Shown: positions 42,888 through 52,554 of the stretch, one piece after another
Layout: each line of letters opens with the position of its first letter
How positions within the stretch are numbered: the first letter of the stretch is position 1
DNA from: Rhodothermales bacterium
GTDB taxonomy: Bacteria; Bacteroidota; Rhodothermia; Rhodothermales; UBA10348
Direction of reading: 5' to 3'
DNA length: 64,000 nucleotides
Assembly (NCBI GenBank): GCA_040221055.1
Contig: JAVJVN010000009.1
Location: 282,257 to 346,256 of the forward strand
Program-made: the position numbers and the translations under genes
The notes under the pieces: model-generated
The model's database searches: none
Seen by the model: only the letters and a program-made list of their open reading frames with translations
What the model was told of the DNA's origin: nothing

Positions 42888-44033
42888 ATGCCCTCTTTCT
42901 ACACCGATTTACCACCCGTTCATGTGTTTGAGGGCGTGTTCGATGATGCGAATTTCCAGCCCGTCCCGGACGACTGGTGGGCCGTCGTTCTGGACATCCA
43001 GGATTCGACCGGTTGGATACGCCGCGGGCATTACCGGGATGTCAACTTTGTCGGTGCGAGTGCCATAGCCGCGCTCCGGAATGCCGCCACGGACCGCGAT
43101 ATCCCCTTTGTTTTCGGAGGTGACGGGGCCACGCTGCTCGTGCCGGAAACGGACCGGGAGCGCATTGCGGGCACCCTGCTGGGCGTAGTCCGGTCGGCCC
43201 GGGAATTGTTCTCGATGGAACTGCACGCGGGAATGATCCGGGTGGGTACGCTGCGATCGGAGGGGCTCGACATCCAGGTGGCGCGCTATCAGGCGTCCAC
43301 ACACTATGCCCAGGCCATCCTGCGTGGTCCGGGCGTTGCGGAAGCCGAACGACGGGTCAAGAAGGCGGACGGTGCAGGTGTGTACCGCATGGATGATGTC
43401 GCGGAGCGGCCACCGGATTTCACAGGTGTGGAATGCCGCTGGTCACGCATTGACAGTCCTCGGGGGGAGACGGTCAGCTTGCTCGTACTGGCTGACCGAG
43501 CCGAGGAATACCGCAGCCTGTTCACGACACTGGACCGGATATACGGCACCGACGCCGAGCGCCACCCGACCCTTCCCGGGAATCTTCGACTCGCCCTCAA
43601 TCCATTCAAGCTGGCCCGGTACGAACCCAAGGTCCGGCGTTCGCCGGGACACCGCACCCTGTACACCATTCGGATCTGGCTGCAGCAGTTCCTCCTGGTG
43701 CTCTTCGTCCGCCTGAAGCTGACGGTAGGCGGCGTCGAATGGGACCGCTACCTGCCGACCCTCTCGGACACGTCGGACGTGCGCAAGTTCGACGGCATGC
43801 TCCGTATGGTCATGAGCGGCACCACCGCCCAACGGGAGCAGCTGAATGCTTTTTTGCAAGAACGTCATGCCGCAGGACACCTGGTCTGGGGGATGCACGT
43901 CGCAGGGAGCGCCATCATGACCTGTGTGGTGTTCGAACGCCTCGGCGATCAGGTTCACTTCGTCGATGGATCGGACGGCGGGTACGCCATGGCCGCCGCC
44001 GACCTCAAACGTCGGCTGGAAACGTCAACGTAA
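42888..44033 (+). CDS. DUF3095 family protein (nucleotide-cyclase-like)
   Basis: A 381-residue protein. The N-terminal part has DDWWAVVLDIQDSTGWIRRG and FVFGGDGATLLVP, a pattern like class III nucleotide cyclases (metal-binding Asp followed by GGD-type turn), then HAGMIRVGTLRSEGLDIQVA and GVECRWSRIDSPRG, which mark DUF3095. The C-terminal half contains WDRYLPTLSDTSDVRKFDGMLRMV. Activity is not established for the family. Its 3' end overlaps the convergent histidine kinase gene by 29 bases. Confidence 0.82.
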   Translation: MPSFYTDLPPVHVFEGVFDDANFQPVPDDWWAVVLDIQDSTGWIRRGHYRDVNFVGASAIAALRNAATDRDIPFVFGGDGATLLVPETDRERIAGTLLGVVRSARELFSMELHAGMIRVGTLRSEGLDIQVARYQASTHYAQAILRGPGVAEAERRVKKADGAGVYRMDDVAERPPDFTGVECRWSRIDSPRGETVSLLVLADRAEEYRSLFTTLDRIYGTDAERHPTLPGNLRLALNPFKLARYEPKVRRSPGHRTLYTIRIWLQQFLLVLFVRLKLTVGGVEWDRYLPTLSDTSDVRKFDGMLRMVMSGTTAQREQLNAFLQERHAAGHLVWGMHVAGSAIMTCVVFERLGDQVHFVDGSDGGYAMAAADLKRRLETST

Positions 44034-45237
44034 ATCGTGCTCCGCGGCCCAGACCGTCACTTTCAAGCCCGACGACCGCATCATCCAGTTCCGCCAACTT
44101 GCGGGCCACCGCAAGACCGATGCCGAGGCCGCCCTGCTTGCGCGTCATGTGGTCTTCTGCCTGGAAGAACTCATCGAACGCACGGGACAGGTCCTGTCTG
44201 GACAGCCCGGCACCCGTGTCGGTCACGGACAGTTGCAGCCCGTTTTCGTCGTGTTGGCAGGTCACATGAACCTGTCCACCTTCCTCCGTGGCCGCCACGC
44301 TGTTCAGGATGGCGTTGCCCAGAATGCGCACCAGTCGGTCCAGGTCGGACCAAACCGAGACGTCCATGTTGGGCGCCGAGACAGAGAATGAAAGGCCCGC
44401 CTTGCGTACGACCGGCCCGTAGTCCTCCCCCAGCCTGAGAAGTACATCCCGGATGGAGACCGCCCGACGGGCCCCGTCCACATTGCCCAGCCGCAGCGCC
44501 TCGAGCTGCGTCATGGACTCGATGATGGATGCCATGCGATCGGCCGCGACGCGGGCGTCACCGGCAAACGTCTGTTGGATCCCCGTGGTCTCCTCCTGCA
44601 GGATATCGAGCGCCTGGTTCAGGATAGCGAGCGGCGTACGCAATTCATGCGAGGCGATGGCCATGAACTCGGTCCGGAAGGCCTCGAACGCCTGGAGCCG
44701 CTCATAGGCGGACTCGACATACCGGATTTGCCGGGCATTCCGAATGGCCAGTGCGGCCTGGTTGGCAAACCCGCTGAGCAACGCCTCGTCCTCGACGTCG
44801 AACGGTCCCGACCGCTTGTTGAGGGCCTCGAGAACGCCGGTGGCCCGTCCCTCAATGGACATCGGGACCGCGAGGAGCGAGTCGGTCCTGAAGTTCACGA
44901 CCTCACCCACGACCTTGAAATGCTGTTCTGCGGCCCGCAGGTCATTCTGGATGACGGGATCGCCAGTCGTGAATACCCGACCGGCAATGCTGCCTTCGAG
45001 GGGAACCGGTATGGCGGCCAGATCCTCCTGGCTCGTACCGGTCGAAGCCACGAACCGGAGTTCCTGGTGTCGCTCGTCGAACAGCAGCAGCGAACCGGCT
45101 TCGCAGTCCAACAGCTGGGTAACGGCTTCTATGATATACGTAAGCAAGTCGTCCAGACTGCCGGCCGAATTCAACTGGATGGTCACGTCCAGCAGTCGCT
45201 GGAGGACCAGCCGGTCGCGGATGGGGGAATGAGGCAT
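44005..45237 (-). CDS. Soluble GAF-domain sensor histidine kinase
   Basis: A 410-residue two-component kinase without membrane segments. A GAF domain covers about residues 15-165 (AVTQLLDCEAGSLLLFDE, then LLAVPMSIEGRATGVLEAL). HisKA follows with the phosphoacceptor in FMAIASHELRTPLAILNQ, and the HATPase domain has the N box LGNAILNSVAATE, DTGAGLS and GLGIGLAVA. It would sense a cytoplasmic signal or redox state. No response regulator is adjacent, so its partner lies elsewhere. ATG 45237 is chosen because the frame upstream is unlike the family. Confidence 0.92.
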   Translation of the reverse strand: MPHSPIRDRLVLQRLLDVTIQLNSAGSLDDLLTYIIEAVTQLLDCEAGSLLLFDERHQELRFVASTGTSQEDLAAIPVPLEGSIAGRVFTTGDPVIQNDLRAAEQHFKVVGEVVNFRTDSLLAVPMSIEGRATGVLEALNKRSGPFDVEDEALLSGFANQAALAIRNARQIRYVESAYERLQAFEAFRTEFMAIASHELRTPLAILNQALDILQEETTGIQQTFAGDARVAADRMASIIESMTQLEALRLGNVDGARRAVSIRDVLLRLGEDYGPVVRKAGLSFSVSAPNMDVSVWSDLDRLVRILGNAILNSVAATEEGGQVHVTCQHDENGLQLSVTDTGAGLSRQDLSRAFDEFFQAEDHMTRKQGGLGIGLAVARKLAELDDAVVGLESDGLGRGARFTLTFPADV

Positions 45238-45418
45238 GCAGGAGAAATGGTTTGGGTCTTCCAAACTTAGGAGAAACCCGGCGGCAAATCGAGTCGGCAC
45301 CCGGGAAGGTCCCCGAGAGGCGGATGTTCGGCGCCCCGTCGGCATCGGAAAAATTCACGCATCGTCAATATGGGTATTGTCGTACTTTATTCAGCGTCAC
45401 ACCAACCTTTCTGGACCA

Positions 45419-45598
45419 ATGGAACTGGAACTGGAACTCGAGGAGATCACCGCCGCCTGGGACGAGGATGATGATGAGTACGTCTTTGATGACGAAGAGG
45501 ATGAGGACGACGAATGGGAAGAAGACGACGAAGAAGAAGACTGGGAGGACGATGACGAGGATGACTGGGAAGACGACGAAGAAGACGACGAGTGGTAA
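45419..45598 (+). CDS. 59-residue extremely acidic protein, no basic residues
   Basis: The frame from ATG 45419 to TAA 45598 encodes MELELELEEITAAWDEDD and then almost only Asp and Glu. I count 43 acidic residues of 59, five tryptophans spaced 8 to 9 residues apart in the second half, and no Lys, Arg or His. No family is recognised. It ends 7 bases before the likely start of the deoxyhypusine-synthase-like gene, so it probably belongs to the polyamine operon. A role binding polycations such as polyamines or buffering charge is speculation. The repetitive GAN codons raise the chance that it evolves by slippage. Confidence 0.6.
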   Translation: MELELELEEITAAWDEDDDEYVFDDEEDEDDEWEEDDEEEDWEDDDEDDWEDDEEDDEW

Positions 45599-45605
45599 CA
45601 ATCGA

Positions 45606-46601
45606 TTGATTTCTGATTTCATTGAACATCATTACCGGCACTTCAACGCCGCAGCGCTGGTCGATGCGGCAAAGGGGTACGTGGATCACCTGCAGAAGGG
45701 CGGTAAGATGATGGTCACCCTGGCCGGTGCCATGAGCACGGCCGAACTGGGGTTGTCCTTCGCGGAGCTCATCCGTCGGGGACATGTGCACGCCATTACG
45801 TGCACGGGTGCCAATCTGGAGGAAGATGTCTTCAACCTGGTGGCCCATGACCATTACGTCCGTATTCCGCGGTATCGGGACTTGACGCCGGCCGACGAAG
45901 AGGCCCTGCTGGAGCGGCACCTGAACCGGGTCACCGATACGTGCATCCCCGAGGAAGAGGCCATCCGTCGCATTGAGAAAGCCGTCCTCGATCATTGGGT
46001 CGCCGCCGATGAGGCCGGTGAGCGGTATTTCCCGCACGAGTTCCTGTACCGGATCCTGCTCAGCGGCGTCCTGGAGGAGCACTACCAGATTGACCCTGCC
46101 GACAGCTGGCTGCTGGCGGCGGCCGAAAAGAACCTCCCCATCATTGTACCGGGCTGGGAAGACTCCACGCTGGGCAACATCTTTGCCGGGCACGTCATCA
46201 AGGGGACCGTCAAGAACGTCCACACGGTCCGGTCCGGAATCGAGTACATGACCTATCTGGCCGACTGGTACCGCAGGGAAGTCCCTTCGGCAGGCGTGGG
46301 TTTCTTCCAGATTGGCGGTGGCATTGCCGGCGACTTTCCCATTTGCGTCGTCCCCATGCTGGAGCAGGATCTTGAGCTCGACGACGTGAAACGCTGGGCC
46401 TATTTCTGCCAGATCAGTGATTCCACGACCAGTTACGGCTCGTACTCCGGGGCCGTGCCGAACGAGAAGATCACCTGGGGCAAGCTCTCCGCAGATACCC
46501 CTTCCTACGTGATCGAGTCCGACGCGACCATTGTCGCACCGCTCATCTTCACCTACGTCCTCGAACGTCTGGGCGACCAGGCTCATCCCAAAGGCCATTG
46601 A
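45606..46601 (+). CDS. Deoxyhypusine-synthase-family protein lacking the catalytic lysine
   Basis: About 331 residues from a TTG at 45606, where the family sequence begins (ISDFIEHHYRHFNAAALVD). An ATG at 45561 is possible but lies inside the acidic gene in another frame. The NAD-binding core is recognisable: MVTLAGAMSTAELGLSFAEL, CTGANLEEDVFNLVAHDHY, RVTDTCIPEE, and IGGGIAGDFPICVVPM at 236-251. In eukaryotic deoxyhypusine synthase this last region is GGGLPKHHI, whose Lys forms the imine intermediate; here that position is Gly. Bacteria lack eIF5A, and the operon makes agmatine and putrescine, so a role in longer-chain polyamine synthesis is likely but the substrate is uncertain. Its TGA overlaps the next start. 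Confidence 0.87.
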   Translation: MISDFIEHHYRHFNAAALVDAAKGYVDHLQKGGKMMVTLAGAMSTAELGLSFAELIRRGHVHAITCTGANLEEDVFNLVAHDHYVRIPRYRDLTPADEEALLERHLNRVTDTCIPEEEAIRRIEKAVLDHWVAADEAGERYFPHEFLYRILLSGVLEEHYQIDPADSWLLAAAEKNLPIIVPGWEDSTLGNIFAGHVIKGTVKNVHTVRSGIEYMTYLADWYRREVPSAGVGFFQIGGGIAGDFPICVVPMLEQDLELDDVKRWAYFCQISDSTTSYGSYSGAVPNEKITWGKLSADTPSYVIESDATIVAPLIFTYVLERLGDQAHPKGH

Positions 46602-48553
46602 AAGAACCAATTGTCCCTGTCACCGCATGGTCCACTGACGATGCGGAAGCGTTGTATATGATGGGTACCTGGAGCGACGGGTACTACGCAGTCGGCGACA
46701 ACGGAAACGTACATGCCACCCAGATTGGCAACCCGATCGACATCCGCCAGGTCGTGGATGCGCTCGTTGACCGGGGTGTCACCTTCCCGCTGCTCATCCG
46801 CTTCCAGGATGTACTCAAGGGGCGGGTCGTGCAACTCAATGAGGCGTTCCGCGAGGCCATCAAGGAGATGGAATACGGCAACCGGTATACGGGGGTCTAT
46901 CCCATCAAGGTGAATCAACTCCACGAAGTGGTGGAGGAAGTGCTGGATGCCGGAAAGCCCTTCGGCATGGGCCTGGAGTGTGGCTCCAAGGCTGAATTGG
47001 TGGCCGCCCTCCCTCATCTGGAGAGTGATGACACGCTCCTGATCTGCAACGGCTACAAGGACCAGACCACGGTCGACCTCATCCTGACGGGGCAGTCCCT
47101 CGGCAAGAACGTGCTCCCGGTCATGGAGAAGTATGACGAGTTCGATGCCTTGATGGCGGCGTCGCGCAAGCGCAAAATCGCCACTCAGTTCGGCGTGCGC
47201 GTTCGCCTGACAACGGCCGGTGCCGGTAAATGGGCCGATTCCGGCGGAGACCTGTCCAAATTCGGCATCTCCATTCCCGAACTCCTCCGCGTCATTGAAC
47301 GGCTGCATGAGTTGGACGAGGTGGATGCGTTCAAGCTGCTGCATTTCCACCTGGGCAGCCAGATTTCGGACATCCGGTCGCTGAAACGGGCGGTCAAGGA
47401 GATCACCCAGGTCTACGTCCAGATGCGGGCGCGGGGTATTCCGGTCGATTACCTGGATGTCGGGGGTGGCCTCGGCGTCAATTACGGCGCATCGTATGCC
47501 AGTGACGAAGACGGCATCAACTATTCCCTGCAGGAGTACGCCAACGCCATCGTACAGACGGTCAAGGAAGTGTGTGACGCGGCCGATGCACCGCATCCCG
47601 TCATCATCTCCGAAAGCGGACGCGCGCTCACGGCCCATCACTCCGTGCTGGTCGTGAATACCCTCGGCATGTACCGGAAGGACGAAATCAATGATGATTT
47701 CGAACCGTCCGAGGATGACCACCAGGTGGTAAAGGATCTGTTCGAGACGCTCTCCTGGGTCTCGGCGGGTGAGGAAATGGACCTTTCGCAGTTGCTCGAG
47801 GCGCTCCATGATGCCGCCGGCAAGCGTCAGGAAGCCGACTCCCTGTTCGGATTCGGGTACTTGAGCATTGAGCAAAAAGCGGCAGCGGAACGCCTGTACT
47901 GGTCCATTTGCCGCCGCTTGAATCGGTTCCTCCATGCGATGGACGAGGACGAGATCCTGCCGCCCGAACTGGATGCGCTGGACACCCACCTCGTGGACCA
48001 GTGCCTGTGCGACTTTTCCGTCTTCCAATCGGCGCTGGACCACTGGGCCATCGGCCAGCGCTTCCCCATCATGCCCCTCCAGCGCCTTGATGAGGAGCCC
48101 ACGCGCCGCGCCGTGTTGGTGGACCTGACGTGCGATTCGGACGGAAAGATCAGCAGCTATGTCTCATCGGGGACGGACAAACGGTTCATGAACATGCACG
48201 CCATTGAACCGGGCGAGCCGTATTACCTCGGGTTTTTCCTGATGGGCGCGTACCAGGATATCATGGGCGATACGCACAATCTGTTCGGACGCGTATCGGA
48301 AGCCCACATCTACGCCGACGACGACGAACCGGAGGGCTTTTACATCGAGAAGATCCTTCCGGGAACGTCCGTGCAGGATATGCTGGCGCTTGTGCAGTAC
48401 TTCCCGAACGATCTGCAGAACCGGATGAACAAGCTCATCCGGTCCAAGATCGATGACGGAACACTGCGCCCCCGGATCGGATTCGAACTCCTGGAGCGCT
48501 ACAAGAAGGCGTTTGATCAACATACGTACTACACGACGCACGACAGGGCATGA
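46598..48553 (+). CDS. speA: Biosynthetic arginine decarboxylase
   Basis: A 651-residue PLP enzyme converting arginine to agmatine. The opening WSTDDAEALYMMGTWSDGYY is the family N terminus, YPIKVNQLHEVVEEV carries the PLP lysine, HFHLGSQISDIR and VDYLDVGGGLGVNYGAS bind the cofactor phosphate, and ISESGRALTAHHSVLV is typical. The C-terminal part has CDSDGKISSYV and FFLMGAYQDIMGDTHNLFG with the active-site acidic residues. Full length for the family. The TTG start at 46598 overlaps the upstream TGA, and the TGA at 48551 overlaps the next ATG, so three genes are tightly coupled. Confidence 0.95.
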   Translation: MKEPIVPVTAWSTDDAEALYMMGTWSDGYYAVGDNGNVHATQIGNPIDIRQVVDALVDRGVTFPLLIRFQDVLKGRVVQLNEAFREAIKEMEYGNRYTGVYPIKVNQLHEVVEEVLDAGKPFGMGLECGSKAELVAALPHLESDDTLLICNGYKDQTTVDLILTGQSLGKNVLPVMEKYDEFDALMAASRKRKIATQFGVRVRLTTAGAGKWADSGGDLSKFGISIPELLRVIERLHELDEVDAFKLLHFHLGSQISDIRSLKRAVKEITQVYVQMRARGIPVDYLDVGGGLGVNYGASYASDEDGINYSLQEYANAIVQTVKEVCDAADAPHPVIISESGRALTAHHSVLVVNTLGMYRKDEINDDFEPSEDDHQVVKDLFETLSWVSAGEEMDLSQLLEALHDAAGKRQEADSLFGFGYLSIEQKAAAERLYWSICRRLNRFLHAMDEDEILPPELDALDTHLVDQCLCDFSVFQSALDHWAIGQRFPIMPLQRLDEEPTRRAVLVDLTCDSDGKISSYVSSGTDKRFMNMHAIEPGEPYYLGFFLMGAYQDIMGDTHNLFGRVSEAHIYADDDEPEGFYIEKILPGTSVQDMLALVQYFPNDLQNRMNKLIRSKIDDGTLRPRIGFELLERYKKAFDQHTYYTTHDRA

Positions 48554-49467
48554 CAACCTCCCGATCCGTTACTGTTGGCCTGGTCCAGATGCAATGCGCT
48601 GAGGACGCGGCCACGAATCTGGAACGCGCCGTCCGGGGCATGGAGACGGCTGCGGAGGGCGGCGCAACGCTCGTGTGTCTTCCCGAGCTGTTCCTCTCCC
48701 CGTATTTCTGTCAGGCGGAGGATGTGGACCTGTTCCGCCTGGCCGAACCCATTCCCGGACCGACGACGGACCGGCTGGTTGCCGAGTGCGCGCGGCTCGG
48801 CGTATCGGTCGTCGCGAGCCTGTTTGAAAAGCGGGCCGAAGGCCTGTACCACAACACAGCTGCCGTCATCGACCCGAAGCGCGGATACCTCGGAAAGTAT
48901 CGTAAAATGCATATTCCGGACGATCCGCTGTACTCGGAGAAGTTCTATTTCGCGCCGGGCGACCTGGGGTTCAAGGTCTTCGAGACCGCCGGGATCCGGG
49001 TAGGCGTCCTGGTGTGCTGGGATCAGTGGTATCCCGAAGCGGCGCGACTGACGGCCCTGATGGGCGCGGACGTCCTGTTCTACCCGACGGCCATCGGGTG
49101 GCACCCGTACGAGAAAGCGTCCCACGGGGAGGCCCAGCATGCAGCATGGGAGACCATCCAGCGCAGCCACGCCGTCGCCAACGGATGCTTCGTGGCCGCG
49201 GTCAACCGGTCCGGTTTCGAGCCGACCGTCCCGGGCGGCGCGCACCCCGAGGGTATTGAATTCTGGGGGCAGTCGTTCCTGGCTGGCCCCGACGGCATGA
49301 TCCTCGAGAAAGGGCCGCAGGAGACGCCGGCAGACGAACCCATCGTCCTGCTGCACACGCTTGATCTTGATCGGATAGCTGAACAACGGGGCGGCTGGCC
49401 GTTTTTCCGGGACCGCCGCATAGACGCCTACGGCGACATCACGCGCCGCTTCATCGATGCCGACTGA
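48550..49467 (+). CDS. aguB: N-carbamoylputrescine amidase
   Basis: A 305-residue nitrilase-superfamily hydrolase that removes the carbamoyl group from N-carbamoylputrescine to give putrescine, CO2 and ammonia. The catalytic triad is Glu46 in LPELFLSPYF, Lys119 in GKYRKMHIPD and Cys156 in VLVCWDQWYPEAAR. DDPLYSEKFYFAPGD and the C-terminal YGDITRRFIDAD agree with the bacterial and plant enzymes. Its ATG overlaps the speA stop in ATGA, and its end overlaps the agmatine deiminase start by 11 bases. Together with its neighbours it completes the arginine-to-putrescine route. Confidence 0.95.
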   Translation: MTTSRSVTVGLVQMQCAEDAATNLERAVRGMETAAEGGATLVCLPELFLSPYFCQAEDVDLFRLAEPIPGPTTDRLVAECARLGVSVVASLFEKRAEGLYHNTAAVIDPKRGYLGKYRKMHIPDDPLYSEKFYFAPGDLGFKVFETAGIRVGVLVCWDQWYPEAARLTALMGADVLFYPTAIGWHPYEKASHGEAQHAAWETIQRSHAVANGCFVAAVNRSGFEPTVPGGAHPEGIEFWGQSFLAGPDGMILEKGPQETPADEPIVLLHTLDLDRIAEQRGGWPFFRDRRIDAYGDITRRFIDAD

Positions 49468-50479
49468 CGTGAACCCAAAGCGCCGCTTTCCGGCCGAGTG
49501 GGAGCCGCACGAGGGTACGTGGTTTTCATGGCCCCAGAACCGCGATACGTGGCCGACCGGCCTGCCCGAAACCGAACAGGCCCTGGCCGAGGCGGTCCGC
49601 GCACTGGCCAGTGGCGAAACGGTGTGGTTGAATTGCCTGGACCACGCGCACGTCCGTCATGTCCGGAACATCGTCGGTACGGACCGGAATATTGTGTATC
49701 CGGTCATCCCGACCAACGATGCGTGGTGCCGGGATCACGGGGCTACCTTCGTCTATGACGGCGAGGATCGGGTTGCGCTCGACTGGCACTACAATGCCTG
49801 GGGCGGCAAATACCCCCCCTTTGATCTCGACCAGCAGGTCGCGGCCCGGATGGCCGCAATGACGGGTGCACGGTGCGTGTCCGTTGACGTCACGCTGGAA
49901 GGCGGCGCGCTGGAAACCGACGGCCGGGGCACGTTGCTTACGACGGCCTCCTGCGTCCTGAATCCGAACCGGAACCCCGGATTGGACCAGGACGGGGCAG
50001 AATCCCTGTTCAGGGAGTATCTCGGCGTCGAGCGGATTGTGTGGCTGGAAGGGGAACTGGCGGGAGACGACACGGACGGTCACATTGACAACCTGGTCCG
50101 TTTTACGGATCCGGATACGCTCGTTTACCCGGTCGTTGCGGAGCAGGACGTCCACTTCAAGGGGTTTGAACGCAACCGTGAACTCCTGGAAGCAAATTTT
50201 CACGATGATATTCGTCTGATTGCCCTGCCGCACCCGGATCCTGTGTGGCACGAAGGCGTGCGACTGCCCGCCAGCTACATGAACTTCTACATCGGCAATT
50301 CCGTTGTGGTCGTACCCGTGTATGGCTGCCCGGCCGATGAAGAGGTCTGTTCGACGCTGGGCATACTGTTTCCTGATCGAACCGTGGTACCCATCCGCTG
50401 TACGGAGGTCATTCGGGGGCTCGGCGCCCTCCATTGCCTCTCGCAACAAGTACCCCGCAACCACCCTAGCACTACCTGA
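49457..50479 (+). CDS. aguA: Agmatine deiminase
   Basis: A 340-residue peptidyl-arginine-deiminase-family enzyme converting agmatine to N-carbamoylputrescine and ammonia. The motifs are FPAEWEPHEGTWFSWP, NDAWCRDHGATFV, WGGKYPPFDLDQ, LEGGALETDGRGTLLTT, DDTDGHIDNLVRF with the catalytic His, and GALHCLSQQVPR with nucleophile Cys327. The first four map the substrate pocket. Length is slightly below the 365 residues common elsewhere. Coupled to aguB by an 11-base overlap; the following acidic gene starts 7 bases after its stop. Confidence 0.95.
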   Translation: MPTDVNPKRRFPAEWEPHEGTWFSWPQNRDTWPTGLPETEQALAEAVRALASGETVWLNCLDHAHVRHVRNIVGTDRNIVYPVIPTNDAWCRDHGATFVYDGEDRVALDWHYNAWGGKYPPFDLDQQVAARMAAMTGARCVSVDVTLEGGALETDGRGTLLTTASCVLNPNRNPGLDQDGAESLFREYLGVERIVWLEGELAGDDTDGHIDNLVRFTDPDTLVYPVVAEQDVHFKGFERNRELLEANFHDDIRLIALPHPDPVWHEGVRLPASYMNFYIGNSVVVVPVYGCPADEEVCSTLGILFPDRTVVPIRCTEVIRGLGALHCLSQQVPRNHPSTT

Positions 50480-50486
50480 GCATCCC

Positions 50487-50909
50487 ATGTCCGAACTCTC
50501 CAGTTCCGAATTCAAGGACTCCCGAGCCGCCCCGTCGGTGTCCCGTGAGAAGTGGGCCCTGCACGCACACGCCAAACTGTCCAAAGGCTATGTGCTGATT
50601 GTATCGCCCGTCCGCAAAAGCGCGAATTTCTTCATGCCGGGCAAGGGATACGACCCTTGTCCCATCATCACGGCCAAGCGACTGATTGAACAGGGTATCG
50701 TGATTGCCGATGGGAAGCACCCGCTGGGCGACCGGTATCGACTTGCACCGGATGTCGATCCCACCCTGGTGGTTCCCCCGGTCGTCGTCGATGACGATGA
50801 TGACGACGATGTGGACACGGGTGGCGACGACCTGACGGATGCCTTGGACACCCTTGGCGGAGACGCGGACGAGGAAGAAGAGGACGAGGCGCCCGAAGAA
50901 GAAGACTGA
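50487..50909 (+). CDS. Unknown protein with poly-acidic C-terminal tail
   Basis: A 140-residue protein. Residues about 20-90 form a compact basic/hydrophobic region (KLSKGYVLIVSPVRKSANFF, then CPIITAKRLIEQGIVIADG) that I do not recognise. Residues 104-140 are dominated by Asp and Glu (VVVDDDDDDDVDTGGDDL, then DEEEEDEAPEEED). It begins 7 bases after aguA and 25 bases before the next gene, so it is probably the last member of the polyamine operon. A second acidic protein begins that same operon. A role is not known. Confidence 0.65.
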   Translation: MSELSSSEFKDSRAAPSVSREKWALHAHAKLSKGYVLIVSPVRKSANFFMPGKGYDPCPIITAKRLIEQGIVIADGKHPLGDRYRLAPDVDPTLVVPPVVVDDDDDDDVDTGGDDLTDALDTLGGDADEEEEDEAPEEED

Positions 50910-50934: not shown

Positions 50935-52554
50935 ATGCTGCACGATTTCCTGACCTTCTTCGAGACCATTCCGTCATCGTACCGGTCAATCGTGCTTGTG
51001 TCGGGAATCGTGCTGTTCTGGGCGCTCGAGGGTGTAATCCCGTTGTTTTCGTGGGCCTACAAGCGGTATCGGCACGCTGCGCTGAACCTTGTATTCACGC
51101 TCACCACGCTGGTGGTCAACCTGGGTCTCGCGTTTCTGATCGTCTGGGCGGCCGATTGGACAGGAGAACGCGGATTCGGAGTACTCTATCTGGTGGATTT
51201 GCCGCTCTGGGTCCATGTACTCGGTGGCGTGCTCCTGCTGGATTTGATCGGCGCATGGTTCATCCACTGGCTGGAACACCGGGTTCGGTGGATGTGGAAA
51301 TTCCATCTCATCCATCATACCGATACGCACGTGGACGTCACTACGGCGCTGCGGCATCACCCGGGAGAATCGGTCTTCCGCGCGCTGTTCACCGTGATGG
51401 CCATCCTGGTGGCGGGCGTACCCATTGGCGTTGTGTTCCTGTATCAGACCCTCTCGGCGCTTTTTTCCCAGTTCAACCATGCGAACATCTCCCTTCCGGG
51501 TTGGCTGGAGCGGAGTTTGTCCTTCGTCTTTGTCACGCCGGACATGCACAAGGTGCACCATCACTGGGTTCAGCCCCAGACGGACACGAATTACGGCAAC
51601 ATCTTCTCCCTGTGGGACCGCTGGTTCGGTACCTATGACCCGATGCCGGCGACGGAGGTCCGCTTCGGTATCGATACCCACATGGATCCGGAGGAACACG
51701 ATGACCTGGTCAACCTGATGGGCATTCCGTTCCAGACGTACCGGCCGCCGACAGGCGCCAAGTTTTCCGATCCCGGCCCGTCGCATCCAGGGCCGTCGGA
51801 TTCCGGACCTGTGGCGCTCATTCTGCTGTTCCTGCTCCTGTCCGGTTGCGCGGGCTCGGCGGCGTTGACAAGTGCACCCGTTTCGCGGGAGATCGAGGTG
51901 GACGCTGATGTCGTCGAGTGGTTCGACCATTTCAACGAGATCGCGGATACGCGACTTCGCGTGGGCGTACAACATGATGATGACTACCTCTACCTGGCTG
52001 TCGTCAGCACGCAACGGGCCACCGTACAGCAGATTGCCCGCGAGGGACTGACCATCTGGTTCGACACGACTGCGGGCAAGCAAACCGGGTACGGTTTACG
52101 CTATCCGGTGGGGCCGCCGCCACAGGGAGGTCCTCAAGCTCGCACGGGCCCCGAGCGGGATCCGGGCCTGATCGATCTGTTTTTCGAAGTTGACAAACCC
52201 ATCCGGAGACCGGTGGCATCGGCCCCGGGACTCCAGGCGCACATGGGCTTTGACTTCGGAGCATTCACCATGGAACTGCGGATTCCCAGGCACGATGTCG
52301 GGCCCGACGGATTCCATGTCCATTTGCCGCCCGGATCTACCGTACAGATCGGTTTCGAGACCGTCGGCCAGGACACGGACGGAGACTCGTCGACCGACCG
52401 CGGGACGGGCGGACGCGATATGGACGGCGCCAGGGGCAATACGGGCGGCTTCGGAGCCGTAGGGCGGGACTTCGGCGGACGCGGCGCAGGCGGACCCAGC
52501 CCGCTCTTTACCGGCGCGATCGAGGCCTGGGTCCGGGTCACGCTGCCTGAATAG
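50935..52554 (+). CDS. Sterol desaturase/fatty-acid hydroxylase fused to a lipoprotein-like beta domain
   Basis: A 539-residue frame. Residues 1-255 are a membrane di-iron hydroxylase: HWLEH (111-115), HLIHH (124-128), HHPGE (141-145), NHANI (181-185) and HKVHHH (205-210), with about four membrane helices between. Residues 293-305, VALILLFLLLSGC, form a textbook lipobox, and residues 306-539 resemble a CBM9-like sandwich (ADVVEWFDHFNEIADTRLRV, then YLYLAVVSTQRA). The C-terminal part is Gly-rich (DFGGRGAGGPS). An in-frame GTG at 51811 could start the lipoprotein separately, so this may be two genes with a missing stop, or a real fusion. Substrate unknown. Confidence 0.8.
   Translation: MLHDFLTFFETIPSSYRSIVLVSGIVLFWALEGVIPLFSWAYKRYRHAALNLVFTLTTLVVNLGLAFLIVWAADWTGERGFGVLYLVDLPLWVHVLGGVLLLDLIGAWFIHWLEHRVRWMWKFHLIHHTDTHVDVTTALRHHPGESVFRALFTVMAILVAGVPIGVVFLYQTLSALFSQFNHANISLPGWLERSLSFVFVTPDMHKVHHHWVQPQTDTNYGNIFSLWDRWFGTYDPMPATEVRFGIDTHMDPEEHDDLVNLMGIPFQTYRPPTGAKFSDPGPSHPGPSDSGPVALILLFLLLSGCAGSAALTSAPVSREIEVDADVVEWFDHFNEIADTRLRVGVQHDDDYLYLAVVSTQRATVQQIAREGLTIWFDTTAGKQTGYGLRYPVGPPPQGGPQARTGPERDPGLIDLFFEVDKPIRRPVASAPGLQAHMGFDFGAFTMELRIPRHDVGPDGFHVHLPPGSTVQIGFETVGQDTDGDSSTDRGTGGRDMDGARGNTGGFGAVGRDFGGRGAGGPSPLFTGAIEAWVRVTLPE

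Follow-up and report, generated by a model that had tools for sequence, protein, structure and literature searches.

Runs of acidic residues in nascent chains destabilise ribosomes, and acidic leader ORFs regulate the genes mgtA and mgtB (PMC11282234, PMC8092293). EttA dependence, according to a study of that factor, requires the acidic residues to be among the first 30. A different upstream ORF, orf34 of Salmonella speF, acts via Arg codons, RNA refolding and Rho/RNase G (PMC6386406). The acidic DNA-mimic protein DMP19 of Neisseria, which binds HU, functions in a defined dimeric or monomeric form (PMC5722371). Among polyamine enzymes, the DHS-like proteins of bacteria have as known products homospermidine or a caldomycin-type guanidino compound (PMC10981699).

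Here we describe acW (name used here), a gene for an acidic, Trp-bearing small protein, in a stretch of 64,000 nucleotides from a Rhodothermales bacterium (the window). Very small, low-complexity acidic genes are easily overlooked in annotation. Judged from its sequence context, acW is the first gene of a polyamine operon, acW-DHS-speA-aguB-aguA. The MgtL/MgtQ leaders, the speF upstream ORF and the DNA mimics each match acW in one feature, and none matches it in all. Like MgtL and MgtQ, acW is a small acidic ORF directly 5' of a cation-homeostasis gene, in a close translational arrangement, but it is longer and far more acidic, has conserved Trp residues, is kept in genomes without the operon, is divergent in one family, and shows no attenuator structure. 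It shares with orf34 the position of an upstream ORF in a polyamine biosynthesis transcript, although in the window species it has no Arg codon. The likeness to DMP19 lies in acidity, in a proposed role as nucleic-acid competitor for basic proteins, and in an H-NS gene that adjoins acW in three genera, whereas the acW product is predicted to be disordered and its binding is putative. The enzyme gene itself belongs to the DHS superfamily and stands beside arginine decarboxylase and agmatine enzymes, which recalls the homospermidine and caldomycin synthases, but its product scores under the NCBIfam cut-offs for every DHS subfamily.

Results

Gene order and composition

The features around acW, in window positions, are:

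44005-45345, minus strand: GAF/HisKA histidine kinase, the divergent neighbour of acW in the window genome
45350-45388, plus strand: candidate promoter region, comprising AAAATTCA (45350-45357) and a 17-nt block, GGGTATTGTCGTACTTT (45372-45388), from the alignment of four genus members
45419-45598, plus strand: acW, 59 aa, from ORF translation and family comparison
45606-46601, plus strand: DHS-like enzyme with an ITWGK motif (PF01916, E 3e-41), most likely start TTG 45606, 7 nt after the acW stop
46598-48553, plus strand: SpeA, biosynthetic arginine decarboxylase (TIGR01273, 652 bits, above cut-off)
48550-49467, plus strand: AguB-like N-carbamoylputrescine amidase (TIGR03381, 281 bits, below cut-off)
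49457-50479, plus strand: AguA-like agmatine deiminase (TIGR03380, 243 bits, below cut-off)
50487-50909, plus strand: second small protein, with an acidic tail, of the 'GYVL' family; its homologue in family f14 adjoins an acidic Trp ORF
50938-51780, plus strand: fatty-acid-hydroxylase homologue 3' of the operon (the G008 relative matches PF04116)

Elsewhere in the window, the segment 24001-38000 has a GC content of 49-58%, against 59-67% in the window, and is possibly an acquired island.

The acW ORF (45419-45598, plus strand) translates as MELELELEEITAAWDEDDDEYVFDDEEDEDDEWEEDDEEEDWEDDDEDDWEDDEEDDEW. It comprises 21 Asp and 22 Glu among its 59 residues (43, or 73%) and no Lys, Arg or His, and has a computed mass of 7.4 kDa and a net charge of about -43. 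These counts agree with a preliminary description of the locus, as does the PF01916 match of the gene immediately downstream, which had there been called DHS-like. The same description placed Trp at positions 33, 42, 50 and 59; all four are correct, but Trp14 had been overlooked and the protein has five. The window has 516 ORFs that reach 40 codons, and the one that contains acW is the most acidic of them. No 45-residue stretch elsewhere in the six frames exceeds 53% Asp/Glu, the runner-up being the acidic tail of the protein encoded from 50487. The acidity of acW in the window is far above chance expectation.

Both AAAATTCA and GGGTATTGTCGTACTTT are invariant in 4/4 genomes of the window genus and lie ∼30 nt 5' of the acW start codon in the window; GGGTATTGTCGTACTTT with AAAATTCA upstream is a likely promoter of acW. 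A longer window ORF, from ATG 45236 (120 aa), was ruled out: it would span the invariant promoter-like block, and the sequences of all four genus members line up at the ATGGA at 45419.

Reading frames and the start of the DHS-like gene

The adjacent frame of the acW repeats is Thr/Lys-rich on translation and obscures the start of the DHS-like gene. Both points had been raised in the preliminary description, and comparison of relatives settled the second. G001-G003, the three sister species, have acW and DHS in one frame with a stop between them, which leaves a GTG 6 nt past that stop as the sole possible DHS start; a stop just 5' of DHS also closes the DHS frame in genus g4. The nearest in-frame DHS ATG of genus g10 overlaps the final acidic codons (GA-ATG-GTAG), i.e. 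the TGG-stop of acW, and genus g3 has the same overlap, with a later ATG as an alternative. By analogy with these relatives, TTG 45606 is most likely the DHS start in the window. Because DHS starts in relatives lie at the acidic stop or just after it, the window Thr/Lys frame is probably not translated within DHS. An N-terminal extension of DHS in that frame was likewise rejected, since the acidic ORF of G001-G003 occupies the DHS frame and stops 6 nt before the GTG. In this way acW fixes the DHS start, a position that simple ORF prediction would put within or 5' of the acidic gene.

Conservation of acW

In 16/16 DHS-bearing genomes of the window family (f1, Rhodothermales), DHS is directly preceded by an acidic ORF of about 57-150 codons, in most cases with Trp, two being cut by contig ends. 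Acidic ORFs also precede DHS in G045 (family f4) and G053 (family f6), so that the search beside DHS-like genes proposed in the preliminary description has located such ORFs in three Rhodothermales families. No acidic ORF was seen 5' of DHS in 11 other DHS genomes of the order open to examination, so the pathway can do without the ORF. Among the DHS loci compared from other phyla, no comparable acidic ORF was found within 700 nt upstream, and nothing there exceeded 44% Asp/Glu in a 25-residue window. The compared genomes are mostly fragmented assemblies.

Aligned family members across genera have in common a core motif, DDYhhDDxED, and most end in EW. In genera g3 and g10 the first ∼40 residues are poor in Asp and Glu and include a YADxIL-like motif, the dense acidic run starting near residue 40. 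Differences among G001-G003 at the first, second and third codon positions of acW number 15, 9 and 44, the third position being the most variable. This pattern resembles that of the DHS neighbour, with weaker constraint, and many changes are synonymous or exchange Asp and Glu. The codon comparison indicates that evolution within the genus preserves charge and that acW is a genuine, conserved gene. The acidic ORFs of G045 and G017 (L172 5150-5830 and L182 5902-6873, both minus strand) share a LESRF motif and, past the acidic run, a C-terminal extension rich in basic residues.

An HMM of the acidic family, which finds one place per genome and misses the known divergent forms of g4 and g7 and that of G021, did not find the acidic gene in g5, g6, g8 and g9. 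Orthology between families is uncertain, resting on composition and neighbourhood in a low-complexity sequence. NCBIfam gave no match for the window protein, and Pfam and NCBIfam gave none for the G008 relative; the acW family is a new, uncharacterised small-protein family.

An AlphaFold model from a 10-row alignment, of low confidence (pLDDT about 61), has one helix at 11-39 and an unstructured tail. An N-terminal helix in the longer relatives, and disorder of the acW product, are thus predicted at low confidence. The Asp/Glu tail of the family carries spaced aromatic residues, mostly Trp.

Linkage with polyamine genes

Three genomes of family f14, which has SpeA and no DHS match, contain a similar acidic Trp ORF divergent from SpeA-AguB, then a second acidic-tail gene. 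The acidic gene is linked to DHS or SpeA in four families and in two orientations.

The pattern [DE]3-W-[DE]3 was sought as a DNA motif in 114 genomes of the order, with the reversed pattern as control. All three matches in the window genome lie inside acW, and the corresponding ORF holds 9/9 in G105, 9/10 in G106, 8/8 in G107 and 8/9 in G045. By our own count, 60 of the 101 matches in the 114 genomes are in acidic ORFs adjoining DHS or SpeA; the control gave 16 scattered matches. Of the remaining matches, most of those that could be read sit in longer unrelated proteins (DivIVA-like, repeat proteins) and were discarded as acW relatives. A similar acidic Trp ORF occurs in G101 (family f13, no SpeA/DHS match; L248 3605-4306, minus strand), convergent with an APC-family amino-acid permease gene. 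Since it lies beside the permease gene and no polyamine genes were found, acidic Trp proteins are not confined to polyamine loci.

The GYVL protein of the window, encoded directly after AguA, has 34% identity to its f14 homologue in the N-terminal domain, with many invariant columns and the pattern PSV..K..GYVLxVS..R..F..G.GY.PC, followed by an acidic C-terminal tail. GYVL lies nearby in both families, which suggests a single ancestral cluster for the acidic genes of f1 and f14. The GYVL family is present in 36 of the 114 genomes, usually away from polyamine genes, and is divergent from DHS in G061. The window protein had no NCBIfam match and the f14 homologue no Pfam match, and a PDB fold search with the modelled domain (pLDDT ∼85) gave no convincing match (best E 0.9).

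Retention of acW without the operon

DHS and SpeA were searched for in G004, G008 and G021, and neither was found. These genomes keep an acidic gene with the core motif at the same site, flanked by a divergent H-NS gene and, at the opposite end, by a fatty-acid-hydroxylase or lipoprotein gene of the kind that comes after AguA in relatives. In G008 the fatty-acid-hydroxylase homologue directly follows acW. G004 and G021 are only 84% complete, with the junction on a single contig in each. All three genomes seem to have undergone a clean loss of the four-gene polyamine operon.

An H-NS gene (PF00816) is the divergent neighbour of acW in genera g2, g3 and g10; it is not adjacent to acW in g1 (window included), g4 and g7. 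At L243, L244, L245, L246, L249, L251 and L253 the order is a DnaE-type polymerase, SRAP (PF02586), divergent H-NS (PF00816), the acidic gene, and then either the polyamine operon or, directly, fatty-acid-hydroxylase/lipoprotein genes.

RNA of the acW region forms less structure than shuffled sequences do (z +1.9 and +2.4). The region had no Rfam or riboswitch match at gathering thresholds, and no terminator-like site was found on its plus strand. An RNA attenuator at acW was ruled out, its structure being below that of shuffles.

Discussion

The retention of acW without the operon, its divergent orientation in f14 and an RNA that folds worse than shuffles together argue that its product acts as a protein and not as a pure leader. 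We tentatively favour, at somewhat below an even chance, the reading that acW is a trans-acting disordered polyanion, most likely binding polycations, either the polyamines of the operon or basic proteins such as H-NS.

A purely cis-acting role is unlikely, though it keeps appreciable weight. On that account acW would be a leader ORF whose acidic run destabilises the ribosome, more so at low polyamines or Mg2+, and so adjusts how strongly the coupled DHS gene is translated, in the manner of MgtL and MgtQ at Mg2+ transporter genes. The mgtA and mgtB leader ORFs, with their ribosome-destabilising acidic runs, are a precedent (PMC11282234, PMC8092293). The ORF is on the same strand 5' of its target in f1, f4 and f6. 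In the window genus (g1) acidic residues begin at codon 2, well within the first ∼30 codons, and weak TTG or GTG DHS starts follow the acW stop by 6-7 nt, while in g10 the DHS ATG overlaps the TGG-stop of acW. However, the f14 ORF is divergent from SpeA, and acW persists in G004, G008 and G021, where the DHS target is gone. The ∼40 low-acid residues that come first in g3 and g10 put the dense run near residue 40, beyond the first 30 residues in which EttA dependence needs it. Nor did the shuffle comparison, Rfam or the search for plus-strand terminator-like sites (Rho-independent signals) reveal an alternative RNA structure or terminator. DHS may also be translationally coupled to acW, and in the window genus, with acidic residues from codon 2 on, a cis effect may operate.

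If acW were strictly a polyamine reservoir or sensor, it would bind (homo)spermidine or agmatine at a useful affinity, so as to buffer or sense them. Linkage to DHS or SpeA in four families, and a 7.4-kDa chain with some 43 negative charges and Trp spaced along it, fit this idea, yet it seems improbable: acW is kept in genomes without SpeA and DHS, the acidic ORF is absent at many other DHS/SpeA loci, and simple poly-Asp/Glu is expected to hold polyamines weakly at cellular salt. The preliminary description had suggested that a polyanion encoded with polyamine enzymes could sequester or sense polyamines. The linkage with polyamine synthesis supports this in part (DHS in its families, SpeA in the family without DHS), but an exclusively polyamine-tied role fits poorly with the three DHS/SpeA-less genomes and the G101 ORF. 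We give still less credence to a non-specific acidic disordered protein, serving hydration, salt or crowding adaptation or divalent-cation binding, whose adjacency to polyamine genes is inherited synteny without function. Acidic-tail proteins are indeed common in the order and the gene remains after operon loss, but strict-motif matches are rare across whole genomes and cluster at the polyamine locus, linkage is seen repeatedly, in four families and two orientations, and the Trp residues and core motif are conserved. A last reading, which the short imperfect repeats detected by TRF would fit, denies that acW is a gene: it would be an open frame arisen by chance in GA-rich repeats, or else an artefact of the true DHS N-terminus. 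Cross-genus conservation with charge preservation, and the stop that closes the DHS frame just before DHS in three sister species and g4, leave that view hardly any probability, and it is already contradicted by the comparative sequence data.

As a trans-acting polyanion, the acW protein would be a counter-ion or nucleic-acid mimic for polycations. The polyamines made by its own operon are one candidate partner, although retention of acW without that operon weakens the case for polyamines as sole partner. Another would be basic proteins that bind DNA or RNA in a manner also influenced by polyamines, for example the H-NS encoded beside acW in three genera. Of the features of a DNA mimic, acW has the strong negative charge (about -43 in 59 residues); in place of a folded duplex-like surface, the low-confidence model shows a helix at 11-39 and an unstructured tail, and a DNA-binding partner is indicated by neighbourhood only, through the H-NS gene of g2, g3 and g10. 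The overlapping or abutting stop and start codons would couple the amount of acW to that of DHS.

A more specific proposal, which we regard as improbable, is that acW is a dedicated polyanion, translationally coupled to a homospermidine-type pathway, which serves as a counter-ion or sensor and thereby controls how much polyamine is free, or how polyamines and nucleoid proteins compete for DNA. As a conserved gene for a polyanion, joined physically to those for polyamine synthesis, acW offers a direct genetic handle on how bacteria hold free polyamine low at high total polyamine, a poorly understood matter.
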